From the IMG/VR virus record IMGVR_UViG_3300021959_000226, positions 1-31,434 of that record: a stretch of 31,434 nucleotides of DNA, one strand, 5' to 3'. Position numbers and translations under genes: made by a program. The notes beneath the pieces were generated by a model, which saw only the letters and a list, made by a program, of their open reading frames with translations, was not told the origin of the DNA and did no database searches. How positions within the stretch are numbered: position 1 is the stretch's first letter; each line of letters begins with the position of its first letter. Source of the stretch: a virus. Of the stretch, positions 3,749 through 26,685 are shown one piece after another.

Positions 3749-4216
3749 TCATCTCGGACATATCAAGTCAAAAATAGTGTCCCATTGAAACGGTTGTTCA
3801 CAACGAAAAACAGGCTCGACGGAATCTAACCCATCCATCTTTAGGTCTACAGCGGCGTTGGCTGGATAAAGCAGGCATTCCGCAGGCTCGGTTGGCTTAG
3901 TCTGCTTTTTAATAAGTACCCAGCAGCTAGCGTGACCATGCCGTGATAGCCAAGCTACTTGGCTAGGCTGCAAGGTTACGGAATTGCCTGTCAGGTATTT
4001 CAGTTCGACAAAATGAAAATTTCCGGCTTCGTCGCATATCATCAAATCCGGAATGCCCGCACCGACCCAGTTTTCAATCCGGGTCAGTAATAACTTCCTC
4101 TTCGTCCGCTGCGCTGCTTCTTTGACTTGTTTGTAAAAGCCTGCTTCGCGCTTTGTTGCGATTGGAGGTGTTTTCGTCTTTTTCTTCTGGGGTGATATCG
4201 ATTGTGATTGGGGCAT
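3749..4216 (-). CDS. VRR-NUC type PD-(D/E)XK nuclease, 155 aa
   Basis: The core reads NWVGAGIPDLMI then FHFVELKYLTG and LQPSQVAWL. This gives the PD-(D/E)XK signature with Asp57, Glu71 and Lys73 and the trailing Gln86 expected of stand-alone phage VRR-NUC domains. Such proteins cut DNA structures such as Holliday junctions or flaps and take part in phage recombination or packaging. The first about 23 residues are polar and basic (PQKKKTKTPP) and precede the fold. The gene begins 143 bp inside terS in another frame; I found no start in the VRR-NUC frame after 4216 that would keep the whole fold. The ribosome-binding site is weak (AGAAGAG about 13 nt upstream), so coupling to terS translation is likely. 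Confidence 0.85.
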   Translation of the reverse strand: MPQSQSISPQKKKTKTPPIATKREAGFYKQVKEAAQRTKRKLLLTRIENWVGAGIPDLMICDEAGNFHFVELKYLTGNSVTLQPSQVAWLSRHGHASCWVLIKKQTKPTEPAECLLYPANAAVDLKMDGLDSVEPVFRCEQPFQWDTIFDLICPR

Positions 4217-4697
4217 AGCTATTTTTTATCTCTTCTAAAGCTTTCAAAACGTCTTCTTTCGACATGCTATCGATAGAGCCATGTCGGATCTCTGATTTGC
4301 TGACATAGATGTCGCCTTGGGCTTGGCCTCGCCTGTACTCTGCTTGCACCGCAGCCGAATAAGCTCCGTTTTCCAAAGCCACGTCCCTGATCAATTGCAG
4401 GTCTCTAAGGTGACGCTGGTAGGTGACGCCATACTTCTCATCAAGCTCCCGTCTGTAAGCTTGGATAGCAGCAACGACGTGAGGTGACATGTGTGGGTTG
4501 GTCAGTTCATACGCTCTGGAGTGCGCGGACCCCGCCGCATAGCCAGCGTTTATAGCGGCTTCCCGCAGGGTTATCTGACCGTCCTTACTCACCAATTCTT
4601 TTACAAAGAGTTCTTGCTTGCGGGTCAAAGCTTGGTCTGACGTTATTTTCTTTCTACCGCGCGTTTCGCTCTTAGGCGGGACTTTTGCACGTGGCAT
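4074..4697 (-). CDS. terS: terminase small subunit, 207 aa
   Basis: The protein has a basic, proline-containing N-terminus (MPRAKVPPKSETRGRKK) and then TRKQELFVKELVSKD followed by LREAAINAGY, the helix-turn-helix arrangement usual in phage small terminases. A long helical middle (QAYRRELDEKYGVTYQRHLRDL) fits an oligomerisation region. The protein would recognise the packaging site and pass DNA to the large subunit, which is not in this window. The last about 47 codons overlap the VRR-NUC gene in another frame; that tail is polar and low-complexity, so the nuclease may have been overprinted on a dispensable terS end. Directly upstream is a 6-bp inverted repeat and then a repeat-rich region that may contain its binding site. 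Confidence 0.8.
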   Translation of the reverse strand: MPRAKVPPKSETRGRKKITSDQALTRKQELFVKELVSKDGQITLREAAINAGYAAGSAHSRAYELTNPHMSPHVVAAIQAYRRELDEKYGVTYQRHLRDLQLIRDVALENGAYSAAVQAEYRRGQAQGDIYVSKSEIRHGSIDSMSKEDVLKALEEIKNSYAPITIDITPEEKDENTSNRNKARSRLLQTSQRSSAADEEEVITDPD

Positions 4698-4730: not shown

Positions 4731-4828
4731 CCTGAATAACACGGATCACACTAATATAGGAAGAAAAATGAATTTCAGAAAAAAATATTTTGGAGCCCAG
4801 TAAGGCCGATTTTGATTTTTGCCGTAGA

Positions 4829-5000
4829 GGTAACACTTTTAAAATTAACGCTGTTACCGTTTATGTTACCTTTTGAAATCTCTGTAACCGTTGATATACA
4901 AGGGTTACAGAGATAGGTAACACGGGTAACACGGGTAACACCATTTTTTTTCATGTTTTTAAAAAAACTAATTTTCTCCCTATATAGTGTTACTGTTACT
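4829..5000. repeat. GTTACC/GGTAAC repeat region (candidate pac, origin or operator)
   Basis: Within AT-rich non-coding DNA the hexamer GGTAAC or its complement occurs repeatedly (4829, 4853, 4865, 4916, 4925, 4934), with further GTAACC and GTTAC copies. At 4916-4942 there are three head-to-tail copies of GGTAACACG (the last ends in C). At 4878-4914 a perfect 12-bp inverted repeat, ATCTCTGTAACC facing GGTTACAGAGAT, has a 13-nt spacer. Clustered short repeats with a long palindrome in AT-rich DNA fit a replication origin, a regulator-binding region, or, given terS next door, a packaging site. The whole 4698-5039 gap contains no gene that I can support. Confidence 0.7.
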
Positions 5001-5005
5001 TTAAT

Positions 5006-5029
5006 GACTGTTTAGGCGAGCCGTGAGCC
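5006..5029 (+). repeat. 24-bp inverted repeat, left arm
   Basis: This arm matches the reverse complement of 5771-5794 at 23 of 24 positions (single C/T difference at 5017). The two arms enclose the cysteine-peptidase-like gene. The left arm lies 10 bp past its stop codon. Confidence 0.85.
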
Positions 5030-5039
5030 GCGATTTTTG

Positions 5040-5750
5040 TTACTTATTCAACATACGTTGATACGTTTCCAACATCTCGACGGCCTCGGACCATTCATAC
5101 ACGTTGTGCTCACCGTATGGATCGTCCTCATCCTTGATTGATGATGGGGGGTAAACCCAAACGTCACCGTATGTCCGTATAAACTGCGTATCGAGTTCTG
5201 CGCCAATTTTCTTGGCTAATCGATAAGCTTTGGACCTAGCGGCGGCGTTTGGGTCTTTTGGTTTTGAGACGTCGAGGTCTGGTTTGGTTACGTTGTCGGA
5301 GACAAGTTCCCAAACATCTGAGACCCGCGCTCGGCGTTTCACTCGTTTGTCTCTGATCGAGACGATGTCCCGAATGCGACCACAAGTGTAACGTCGTCCA
5401 CTGACTAGCTGCCAGTGGTTTCCCGCTACGATCAGGAAGACCCGACCTTCGGTTCGATCTTCTTTCGTTGCTTTGAGCCAAGCGGCTAACGTCGATCCCG
5501 GCCTTCGATACGTGTGGTATCGAAGACCCGGTTTGGAGAAGTACTTGGTTTGGATGTTACAAGCTTTGAGGGCTCGAACCACCTGTCCCGAATGCGTCCC
5601 CATGACCCTAGTCACTCGACCGTTGCTTTGCAGCCGGATCAGCCGTGCGGCTTCCCCGGTTGTTAGGCTGGTTAAGGCCGAAATCACGGACGGGCCGCAA
5701 TATCGGTTTTTGTCTTTCCCATCTTTGATGAGCCGTAATTTTAGTTTCAT
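5040..5750 (-). CDS. putative papain/C39-like cysteine peptidase, 236 aa
   Basis: The N-terminal motif NRYCGPSVISALTSL puts Cys18 at the start of a helix, and AGNHWQLVSGR puts His112 at the start of a strand. This Cys...His order and spacing match the C39-like/papain-like fold found in phage and bacterial peptidases. A basic middle (RDKRVKRRARV) and a C-terminal helical region follow. It may process a protein, act as an inhibitor-type pseudo-peptidase, or be a structural remnant; only the motifs support peptidase activity. I chose the ATG at 5750 because CTACGGGAAGG lies seven bases upstream, as in other left-arm genes. The gene is framed by a 24-bp inverted repeat and stands as a single-gene unit. 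Confidence 0.55.
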   Translation of the reverse strand: MKLKLRLIKDGKDKNRYCGPSVISALTSLTTGEAARLIRLQSNGRVTRVMGTHSGQVVRALKACNIQTKYFSKPGLRYHTYRRPGSTLAAWLKATKEDRTEGRVFLIVAGNHWQLVSGRRYTCGRIRDIVSIRDKRVKRRARVSDVWELVSDNVTKPDLDVSKPKDPNAAARSKAYRLAKKIGAELDTQFIRTYGDVWVYPPSSIKDEDDPYGEHNVYEWSEAVEMLETYQRMLNK

Positions 5751-5770
5751 AGTAATACCTTCCCGTAGAA

Positions 5771-5794
5771 GGCTCACGGCTCACCTAAACAGTC
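5771..5794 (-). repeat. 24-bp inverted repeat, right arm
   Basis: Partner of 5006-5029 with one mismatch. It lies in the 5' leader of the cysteine-peptidase-like gene, just upstream of its ribosome-binding site. It contains two direct copies of GGCTCAC. Confidence 0.85.
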
Positions 5795-5849
5795 GTTCGA
5801 TTCACAATGTCCAAAAGCGTTCGATCTCTCGATTATCTATTTTACCAAA

Positions 5850-7974: not shown

Positions 7975-8120
7975 TCATCTAACCCCCAAAAATGAATGGT
8001 GACGGTGCCTTTTTCGTCGTACTCGCTATCGATTTGCTTGTAACCGACGTTTGTACCGCTAACGGCCTGTAGTATTTTCCGAAAAAGCTCTTCTTCGCTT
8101 ATCGTTTTTTCTGAGTTCAT
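7971..8120 (-). CDS. hypothetical protein, 49 aa, first gene of the operon
   Basis: Starts MNSEKTISEEELFRKILQAV and ends DEKGTVTIHFWGLDE. ACACGGGAG lies six bases before the ATG, and a consensus-like promoter lies 30-60 bp upstream, so this short gene is the promoter-proximal member of an 11-gene operon running to 5990. Its stop overlaps the next start as ATGA. Not recognised. Confidence 0.7.
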   Translation of the reverse strand: MNSEKTISEEELFRKILQAVSGTNVGYKQIDSEYDEKGTVTIHFWGLDE

Positions 8121-8148
8121 CTCTTTCTCCCGTGTATGAGATAACTCT

Positions 8149-8177
8149 TATATAATCTAATACCAAAAATGTGTCAA
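8149..8177 (-). promoter_or_regulatory. sigma-70-type promoter of the small-gene operon
   Basis: Reading the minus strand: TTGACA (8172-8177), a 17-bp spacer, then TATATA (8149-8154). This is the best -35/-10 match in the left half and lies about 30 bp before the first gene (start 8120). Host RNA polymerase should recognise it, which suits early expression. Confidence 0.75.
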
Positions 8178-9415: not shown

Positions 9416-9457
9416 CCCCGTGTATAAGACTAGATACTAAATATCCCATACACGGGG
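9416..9457 (-). promoter_or_regulatory. leader hairpin masking the lysin ribosome-binding site
   Basis: A perfect 10-bp inverted repeat (CCCCGTGTAT at 9416-9425, ATACACGGGG at 9448-9457) has a 22-nt spacer. On the minus transcript the promoter-distal arm ATACACGGGG contains the lysin ribosome-binding site, only about 5 nt before the ATG. In long transcripts the site would be paired. Between the arms lies TATGGGATATTTAG, which resembles the other promoter-like elements; a transcript started there would lack the first arm. Confidence 0.6.
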
Positions 9458-9469
9458 TAAAAAAATAGA

Positions 9470-24222: not shown

Positions 24223-26685
24223 TCACTGAAACAAGCCTTCATACATTTTTTCATTGCTTACGCCGCCACCCATTTTAAGTTCATACCCGCGGCCCAACTG
24301 AGCATACGCATCTTTAATTGTGTTTAAAGCAACAATGTTGCGTTCTATTTGACCTGCCTCGGAAGAGGTCGCCCCGCCGCTATAAAGAACAACTAAGCTA
24401 GCATTTAAGTTGGCAATTGTGTTTTTAATTTTGTTGTAAGCTGTTTGGTCACCCTTTGTCCAAGACGCCGGTTCAGGAAGAACATTTTTCAGTTCTGCTC
24501 TAAGCTGTTCACCCTCTTTACCCGGTAAAGCCTGCATTTGAATTACGGTTGTAAGGGTGTTTAAGTTGTTCAACATGTCCGCTGCACGAGAAGTCTCAGG
24601 GAAAGGTTGATTAAATATAGGCAACAAGGTTTCAACCGTTCTATTAAGAACCTGTTTAAAGGCTGTAGGAGAACCCGTAGCTAATGTAGGGTCTAATCCA
24701 GCAATAATTGATTGATATGTAGTGTCTTTTATATCTATGGGCTGACCAGTTGAATCAAACCGGGGTAGATCCCCTGCGGAGGCTGTTAGACCCTTGAGTA
24801 CACTGTCTGCCGCAGAAGAAACTGAGCCGCTTTTTGGAATACCTGCCCCGGTTGCGGAAGAATCACCCAGCGTTGGGACGGTCTTACCTTTAAGGCCTTG
24901 ACGTTTTTCAATCGCCTGACGCCATTCTTGAGCCAATTTATTGCCTTCGGTTAAGGTGTATCGACGATTGTCGGCATCCCAAACCGGTTTAGGTGCAACA
25001 AAATATTCAATGGCTTGGTTCAGTGTAATGTCTTCGTCCGAAGTGGTTTCACCCCGACCATATCTGTCAGCCAGCATAGCTGCTGTTTCATCTGGTTGGA
25101 ACACACCTTTACCAGTTATGATGTTCATAATCCGGCCATCGACGCTTGTACCAAACCGATCAAGGCTACTCGCTGCGGCCTCTAGATCAACCTTGCGCGT
25201 GTCTAGAGCCAACTTCTGCTCTTCCAATGATTTAATTCGGGCTTCTGTTTCTCGCGCCAAATCAAGCCGTTTTTGCTGTATTTGCAACTCTTTGTCAGCA
25301 CGGGCCTGATTAAGGGTAGAATTGAGAGTGTCCAGTTTAAGCCGGTTGTCCGCAATGTTCTGTTGAACCGTGAGCCGTGAGTTTTGAAGCTCAGTTGCTT
25401 GCTCGTGAGCTTTATCCATTTTGGCAAGGTCATATTCATTGGCGACGTCCATTTTGCCAAGTTCAATATTGCCGCGAAGAATAATGTTTTTTGCGTCTAG
25501 CTGGTTAGCGAGTACCTTGCTTTTTTCATCACCAGCTTGCCGCAAGTTTTCAATAATCACCCTGTTGTCTTGCTGTGCCTTTTCTAAAGCTAGGCGTCCG
25601 GCTTGCTTTTCAGCTTCAAGCTGAGTTGCGCCAGCTTGTTTTAACTTTTCTATAATAGTTAGACGCGCCGTATCTAGGCGGTCTTTCATGCTTAACTCCG
25701 CAATTTCTTGATTGCCGATCAACTCTTGTTTTTTCAAATCAGCCGCGGCTTTAGCTTCCGCCGCCAAGCCTGTTTCTGCTGCACCCAGAGCAGACAGCTT
25801 CATCTGCTGCGTTTTGGCGTCTGCGGCCTGCTTAGCTTTGAGTTGTTCCGCGGACCGCGCACTAATAGTCGGGAGAAGTTGTGTTTTTTGCGTAGCCATA
25901 GCCAAGCGCTCCGCCGGACTTAGACCACGGCGTTCGCCCTCCATCGGCCCTGCAAAAGCCAATGCCGTATTGGCAATGTCAAACAGCATCTGCGCTTGAG
26001 TCAGCTTCTTCTGCTCCTCAATCGCGGCGCTTTGGTCGCCAAGAATAGATTTATACAGGGGCATTTTCTGCTTATACAGTTCACCAAGGCGACCTGCCGC
26101 TGCAATCGGATCCCCGCCTTCCTGCATCATTATGACTGGCTGGTTGTCTCCGCGGCGGACCAGCCCGCCTTGGTTAAAATTTACGGGGGGCGGGCCCTCC
26201 ATACCCATAGGCGGCATCATCTCCGCCTCTTGTGGGGGTTGTGCCACCGTAGACATAATGCCTCCAGCCATGTCGCCTTCAACCGGCTGGGTCATCTCTT
26301 CTTGCGCTAGGCTGCCAATGCCCTCATCAACAGCGCTCATCATAATAACAGGCTGTACAAGAGCTAGAACCGACTCAGGCGTTCTTGAGGCGTCCTCTTC
26401 ACCGACGATCTCGGCAAGCTCGCCATACCGCTCTTCCAGAGGAGCCTCGTTGCCCCGCATGGTATTAATTACGGTCTCAAAGTCTTCCGCTTGATCCAAG
26501 TTGCTAATGCTACTCTGCGCGTCAGCAAGCATCTGTTGCAGAACCGCCGGGTCCATCGAGCTTGAAGCCGCAGCCGCAGCATCTTGAGGCATTGCAGATT
26601 GTGCAGCAGCACCAGCTACACCGGGAGCCAAGGCCATGCCGCCATTAGCAAACATCTGACGGTCCATTACACTTCTATTCATCAT
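24223..26685 (-). CDS. large coiled-coil virion protein, 820 aa
   Basis: The N-terminus carries RQMFANGGMALAPG, and VNFNQGGLVRRGDNQPV follows near residue 170, both copies of the GG motif seen across this operon. Residues about 215-520 form an almost unbroken Ala/Gln/Lys/Glu-rich helix (AKAAADLKKQELIGNQEIAE), predicted coiled coil. The C-terminal third is mixed. This resembles ejection or tail-tube-lining proteins of marine phages; no enzyme motif is seen. It overlaps the preceding gene by ATGATG. Confidence 0.65.
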   Translation of the reverse strand: MMNRSVMDRQMFANGGMALAPGVAGAAAQSAMPQDAAAAASSSMDPAVLQQMLADAQSSISNLDQAEDFETVINTMRGNEAPLEERYGELAEIVGEEDASRTPESVLALVQPVIMMSAVDEGIGSLAQEEMTQPVEGDMAGGIMSTVAQPPQEAEMMPPMGMEGPPPVNFNQGGLVRRGDNQPVIMMQEGGDPIAAAGRLGELYKQKMPLYKSILGDQSAAIEEQKKLTQAQMLFDIANTALAFAGPMEGERRGLSPAERLAMATQKTQLLPTISARSAEQLKAKQAADAKTQQMKLSALGAAETGLAAEAKAAADLKKQELIGNQEIAELSMKDRLDTARLTIIEKLKQAGATQLEAEKQAGRLALEKAQQDNRVIIENLRQAGDEKSKVLANQLDAKNIILRGNIELGKMDVANEYDLAKMDKAHEQATELQNSRLTVQQNIADNRLKLDTLNSTLNQARADKELQIQQKRLDLARETEARIKSLEEQKLALDTRKVDLEAAASSLDRFGTSVDGRIMNIITGKGVFQPDETAAMLADRYGRGETTSDEDITLNQAIEYFVAPKPVWDADNRRYTLTEGNKLAQEWRQAIEKRQGLKGKTVPTLGDSSATGAGIPKSGSVSSAADSVLKGLTASAGDLPRFDSTGQPIDIKDTTYQSIIAGLDPTLATGSPTAFKQVLNRTVETLLPIFNQPFPETSRAADMLNNLNTLTTVIQMQALPGKEGEQLRAELKNVLPEPASWTKGDQTAYNKIKNTIANLNASLVVLYSGGATSSEAGQIERNIVALNTIKDAYAQLGRGYELKMGGGVSNEKMYEGLFQ

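Follow-up and report, generated by a model that had tools for sequence, protein, structure and literature searches.

In phage lambda, boxB lies 3' of boxA and binds the phage N protein, and the nut site is not known to have a closing trailer strand. The Escherichia coli pre-16S region carries boxB, boxA and boxC together with a 25-40 bp leader-trailer helix; boxC is nearly invariant on the leader strand and is supported by wobble changes, such rRNA leader-trailer helices are RNase III sites, and the relative contributions of the helix and the antitermination complex are still being worked out (PMC10250234). The boxA of suhB represses rather than promotes expression (PMC5725501), and in the icaR mRNA of Staphylococcus aureus the 5' UTR pairs with its own 3' UTR, with RNase III involved (PMC3868564). 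Leader-trailer helices and boxA are usually thought of as ribosome-making tools. Here we describe a phage module of boxA and a gene-enclosing helix, for which a literature search covering mainly non-subscription papers returned no report; as far as we found, an rRNA-operon layout on a protein-coding phage gene is apparently unreported.

The window, that is, the whole stretch of 31,434 nucleotides of viral DNA that was analysed, was initially annotated as carrying a 24-bp inverted repeat around a single gene, and this is borne out: 23 of 24 positions are identical between 5006-5029 (GACTGTTTAGGCGAGCCGTGAGCC) and the reverse complement of 5771-5794 (GACTGTTTAGGTGAGCCGTGAGCC), and exactly one gene, on the minus strand at 5040-5750, lies inside. 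The single differing base gives C-A on the plus strand; read as gene-sense transcript it is a U-G wobble, which RNA pairing allows. At up to three mismatches the window holds only these two copies of the arm (0.00 in 100 dinucleotide shuffles), and by a simple expectation approximately 8e-6 inverted repeats of 24 nt with at most one mismatch would occur within 1 kb per window. A boxA 5' of the leader arm is new here and was absent from the initial annotation. In gene sense the module runs from promoter through hairpin, boxA, helix arm and gene to the closing arm, with the following features:

5839-5844, minus strand: possible -10 hexamer TAAAAT of a module promoter, placed as the -10 hexamers in relatives
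5821-5832, minus strand: small hairpin TCGA-GAGA-TCGA, from folding, in a boxB-like position just 5' of boxA
5800-5818, minus strand: boxA GCTTTTGGACATTGTGAAT, an rRNA-operon-type antitermination signal by the rRNA-only matrix
5771-5794, minus strand: 5' (leader) arm of the long-range helix, 5 nt past boxA and 20 nt short of the ATG
5758-5764, minus strand: Shine-Dalgarno stretch GGGAAGG, read directly from the sequence, just 3' of the leader arm
5040-5750, minus strand: gene for a 236-aa papain/C39-like Cys-His protein of an unnamed family, ATG at 5750 and stop at 5040
5006-5029, minus strand: 3' (trailer) arm of the long-range helix, beginning 10 nt past the stop codon

The ATG at 5750 is the start common to the window gene and its relatives. 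A consensus scan made no promoter call at 5839-5844 and the window -35 is weak; -35 and -10 hexamers read by eye in relatives include TTGACT-N17-TATGAT (L037) and TTGAAC-N17-TATACT (L051). Most but not all relatives have a small hairpin of differing sequence at the same place in the leader, for example with a GAGA loop in L016, with 6 bp and a GAGA loop in L020, and with 6 bp in L065. The enclosed 236-aa protein has no sequence match in Pfam, PHROG or PDB, in which it is unlike C39/papain-like cysteine peptidases. It resembles them in Cys18 (CGPS) and His112, both invariant in 42 sequences, and in the weak best matches of its confident AlphaFold2 model (mean pLDDT 90) to solved structures in Foldseek, namely the C39 transporter PCAT1 (E 8.6e-3) and prostaphopain B (0.038). 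It is likely to be a Cys-His enzyme.

The window holds further repeats. The stretch 4752-4990, immediately before the gene for the small terminase (4074-4697), contains GGTAACA repeats of iteron type together with a 36-nt palindrome (4878-4914), which is 97% conserved in L004; inverted TATATAGGGAGAAAATTA-like copies frame them. L032 has GGGACAG repeats at the same place, and the framing inverted repeat also occurs in L016 and L055. A packaging site or an origin is a possible reading of this region. A 45-nt inverted repeat (8119-8163 and 9422-9466, 73% complementary) surrounds two opposite-strand ORFs.

Scans of viral contigs gave approximately 57 non-redundant loci carrying the gene, in two sets, of which clade 1 is nearest the window. 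In almost every clade-1 locus an inverted repeat occupies these two positions around the gene, with the upstream arm mostly 18-27 nt 5' of the ATG, the downstream arm within approximately 20 nt of the stop, and a helix of 24 bp in the window and 22-33 bp in most relatives. Stem scores are at least 43 (43-66) in 28 of 32 clade-1 loci and never exceed 27 in the 15 clade-2 loci, all without boxA. The clade-1 exceptions are L018, L054 and L057, in which the stem is bulged and lower scoring, and L043, in which the stem search found none. In clade 2 (L073-L093) the gene sits within an operon and has no outstanding stem. Clade 2 and the isolated phages CRP-901 and XM05 carry the gene but not the module, so the module is dispensable for the gene. 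A search for the boxA module in the isolated relatives CRP-901, CRP-902, XM05, vB_EliS-L02, HTVC023P, HTVC027P, DSL-LC04 and Octadecabacter DB virus 2 gave no site with fewer than three mismatches, and a DNA-level comparison with isolated phages gave no match.

Arm sequences are unconserved across phages, as seen from GACTGTTTAGGTGAGCCGTGAGCC in the window, AAATCGTTTTGGACGTGGGTGCC in L030, TAAGAATCCCTTGGACGTGGGGGTC in L061 and TTTGCCTGATTGAGTGGGCCGGAGCC in L020, and each pairs with its own complement. In 15 gap-free aligned stems 95.5% of cells are paired, a percentage that is partly by construction because the stems were chosen as pairing, and pair-counting finds 16 of 22 pairs changed on both sides. 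With stems selected in this way, the informative parts are the double changes, which amount to 60 cells in the 15 stems versus 16.9 in shuffles, and the swap test. Exchanging trailer arms between phages among 17 stems of the peptidase gene gives a mean pairing of 63% (maximum 77% in 2,000 trials); in their own pairings, standard pairs make up 95.4% of cells, and both-side changes occur in 21 of 22 columns. When other enclosed genes are included (22 stems), 95.0% of cells are paired versus 62% after swapping (maximum 74% in 5,000). The covariation score of the 15 stems is 0.572 versus 0.209 in shuffles, with 0 of 500 shuffles as high, and sliding the partner by one column lowers pairing to 46%. 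On the gene-sense strand of the 22-stem set there are 33 G-U cells versus 8 A-C cells, a count favoured by a stem-finding score that tolerates G-U slightly, and this excess is as expected if the gene's own RNA pairs. In the 856-nt full transcript the helix is closed in both the minimum-energy and the centroid predicted folds (z -10.3). Swap pairing is 54% for the variable outer half of the arm and 71% for the more conserved inner half, which in phages is often GAGCCGTGGGCC.

Together, these data strongly support the interpretation of the inverted repeat as a conserved helix joining the 5' and 3' UTRs of one phage mRNA. Because arm sequences change in step within each phage, the comparison argues for a conserved RNA helix and not a DNA recombination site. 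The initial annotation was therefore partly right: pairing of the leader with the 3' end of the mRNA is backed by compensatory change, by the G-U bias and by the predicted fold of the whole transcript, and recombination at the DNA level and a mobile cassette with fixed ends are not. As a separate observation, column 10 of the 15-stem alignment (13 nt from the inner end) is recurrently unpaired, often as U-U, within near-perfect stems, and bacterial 16S stems likewise show one internal mismatch.

A version of GCTNTTTGACATYGTGAAT lies between the small hairpin and the upstream arm in almost all stem-bearing loci. For comparison we took 16S rRNA genes of genomes sampled from the class to which a Rhodobacteraceae genome belongs, a loose label given that at least one sampled genome looks Gram-positive; boxA sites in these 16S leaders include GCTCTTTGACATTGTGGAT (L114), GCTCTTTGAAATCGTGAAT (L112), GCTCTTTGACATTGTAGAT (L125) and GTTATTTGACATTGATAGA (L121). 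With a matrix made from seven bacterial 16S-leader sites and zero phage data, the window boxA (5818 to 5800, minus strand) scores 22.0 bits, the highest value among 62,832 window positions, and in 32 of 57 loci the module boxA is the top-ranked position of its own locus. Phage records mostly contain a single boxA, located at the module, as do the phage contigs of 55.8 and 58.5 kb. The spacing from boxA to the arm is mostly 2-7 nt in phages versus 0-4 nt in the 16S leaders in which boxA is placeable. On this sequence comparison, the boxA of the module matches the boxA of host-class rRNA leaders.

The exact boxA pattern has five sites in 289 genomes, two of which (L135 and L137, with the 19-mer GCTCTTTGACATTGTGAAT) lie approximately 200 nt upstream of a 16S gene. 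The other exact-pattern bacterial sites (L134, L136 and L138) are not near 16S; L134 and L138 are from one bacterial genome, and each is preceded by a promoter-like stretch. Other boxA-like matches were set aside: a second 19-mer in the window (25969-25987, minus strand, 18.7 bits) falls within an 820-aa ORF and is probably a coding chance, and the clade-2 matches are on the other strand, inside the peptidase gene and without a stem.

Viral contigs were also scanned for the boxA pattern, and a stem was then sought after each site. The stems found enclose genes unrelated in sequence to the peptidase, including families of 133-157 aa (L178, L149), 142-162 aa (L155, L183, L195), 101-113 aa (L212, L175) and 139 aa (L139, L143), a two-gene unit (L208) whose first product is a further protein in which Cys and His are conserved, and a small-ORF unit (L211). 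Tandem units behind a single boxA occur in L178 (a 133-aa gene, then the peptidase), L149, L155 and L042 (the peptidase, then a 105-aa gene), and in all four the second stem starts 0-8 nt past the end of the first. Second and later tandem units are usually without their own boxA; the two genes of L208 are separated by a second boxA. L060 carries an additional 74-aa gene on the peptidase side of the leader arm, upstream of the peptidase, and its stem nonetheless closes 3' of the peptidase. Hence, the stem follows the transcribed unit and not one gene. The 139-aa module gene of L139 has an unannotated relative in Erythrobacter phage vB_EliS-L02 (L247, 3001-3360), where both boxA and stem are missing.

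The gene-sense helix, the boxA match, the order and spacing of the parts and their reuse around other genes can each be read from the sequences. We consider it probable that the repeat forms the leader and trailer strands of one mRNA-closing helix, within an rRNA-operon-like module that uses host antitermination. By analogy with the rrn system, host NusB and S10 would bind boxA on the nascent RNA and, together with NusA, NusG and SuhB, turn RNA polymerase into a Rho-resistant, rrn-type antitermination complex. This complex would keep the leader strand near the polymerase until the trailer strand emerges, and pairing of the two strands would be delayed until then. At about two turns or more, the paired helix would have the length that RNase III needs and would probably be cut, releasing a short mRNA with ends defined just outside the Shine-Dalgarno site and the stop codon, to the presumed benefit of expression; alternatively, it could stay uncut as an end-protecting clamp.

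The helix might instead work purely post-transcriptionally, as a clamp against 3' exonucleases and decay that depends on the 5' end, or as a modulator of translation through its position beside the Shine-Dalgarno site, with boxA incidental or minor. In most phages the arm ends approximately 18-27 nt before the ATG, at the edge of the ribosome footprint, no boxA immediately precedes the later stems of tandem arrays, and 5'-3' UTR pairing is known to regulate a bacterial mRNA, icaR (PMC3868564). We nevertheless find this account unlikely, given that boxA tightly tracks stem-bearing loci at near-fixed spacing and is absent from stemless relatives, a pattern not expected of an incidental match.

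Somewhat less likely again is that RNase III processing is the main purpose and antitermination secondary, with the stems cutting polycistronic phage RNA into single-gene messages, because a single-gene unit under a promoter of its own, such as that of the window, needs no separation. This account would fit the stem lengths of 22-33 bp, the tandem stem units that each surround one gene, the frequent internal mismatch at column 10 of the 15-stem alignment, and the fact that rRNA leader-trailer helices are RNase III sites (PMC10250234).

A DNA element (mobile cassette ends, an invertible segment or site-specific recombination sites) could be suspected from the flanking of exactly one gene and from the different genes between similar arms in other phages, but it is very improbable: the end sequence is not fixed, the arms diverge fully between phages yet stay complementary within each, and G-U pairs are biased to one strand. 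Comparison with related phages speaks against the suggested inversion of the gene, given that the block is colinear between the window and its close relatives and the inverted form is absent. The initial doubt about a classical IS was justified, as the end sequence is unconserved between copies and the block shows neither a recombinase nor a target duplication nor an inverted form. The idea of a cassette passed between phages fails as a DNA element, since its ends have no fixed sequence, and survives as cassette-like use, with different genes in the same kind of stem across phages and in tandem. In relatives with the gene still at its position the arms have indeed diverged, although this divergence is compensatory and therefore refutes only the DNA-site readings. 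A chance inverted repeat is ruled out by the expectation of approximately 8e-6 per window and by conservation through compensatory change.

A wider proposal is that Alphaproteobacteria phages make some mRNAs as rRNA-like precursors, with a host-type boxA loading the rRNA antitermination complex and every gene of the transcript looped out and excised through its own leader-trailer helix; we regard the case for this as evenly balanced. If true, it would be a general phage device for elongation-protected, end-defined and possibly long-lived mRNAs that uses the host ribosome-making machinery. The module also suggests that phages tap the host rRNA transcription route for selected genes. The rRNA layout on short protein genes separates helix and boxA from ribosome assembly, and their effects on transcription, RNA folding, processing and stability thereby become testable with a plain reporter. 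The combination of boxA and an enclosing covarying stem is a signature for finding more such genes.

Among the known systems, the icaR pairing is short and covers the Shine-Dalgarno site. The phage helix, like it, pairs 5' and 3' UTRs within one mRNA (PMC3868564); unlike it, the helix spans two turns, lies outside the Shine-Dalgarno site and 3' of boxA, and is reused around many genes. Lambda nut sites likewise use a phage boxA and a small hairpin to recruit Nus factors, recruitment that is proposed here, whereas the hairpin of the present module lies 5' of boxA and varies in sequence, and an N-like protein was not identified. The suhB case also has boxA upstream of a protein-coding gene, but there boxA is repressive and no long-range gene-enclosing helix is described (PMC5725501); given this repressive precedent, the module may lower or raise expression. 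The closest likeness is to the bacterial rRNA operon leader, in which a hairpin and a matching boxA are followed at once by the leader strand of a covarying helix, the trailer strand follows the transcribed unit, units stand in tandem as 16S and 23S do, and a more conserved leader-strand core faces wobble changes. The same stem search on bacterial 16S loci returned leader-trailer helices of mostly 24-34 bp. The GTGGGC of many phage arms (7 of 16 listed stems, with GTGAGC instead in the window stem) resembles rRNA boxC (GTGTGGGC), a likeness that is suggestive only. The phage stem sequence is otherwise unrelated to host rRNA stems, so that only boxA and perhaps this core resemble them. The phage module encloses a translated gene with a Shine-Dalgarno site and not an rRNA; hence, although it is not itself an rRNA leader, it seems to function like one.
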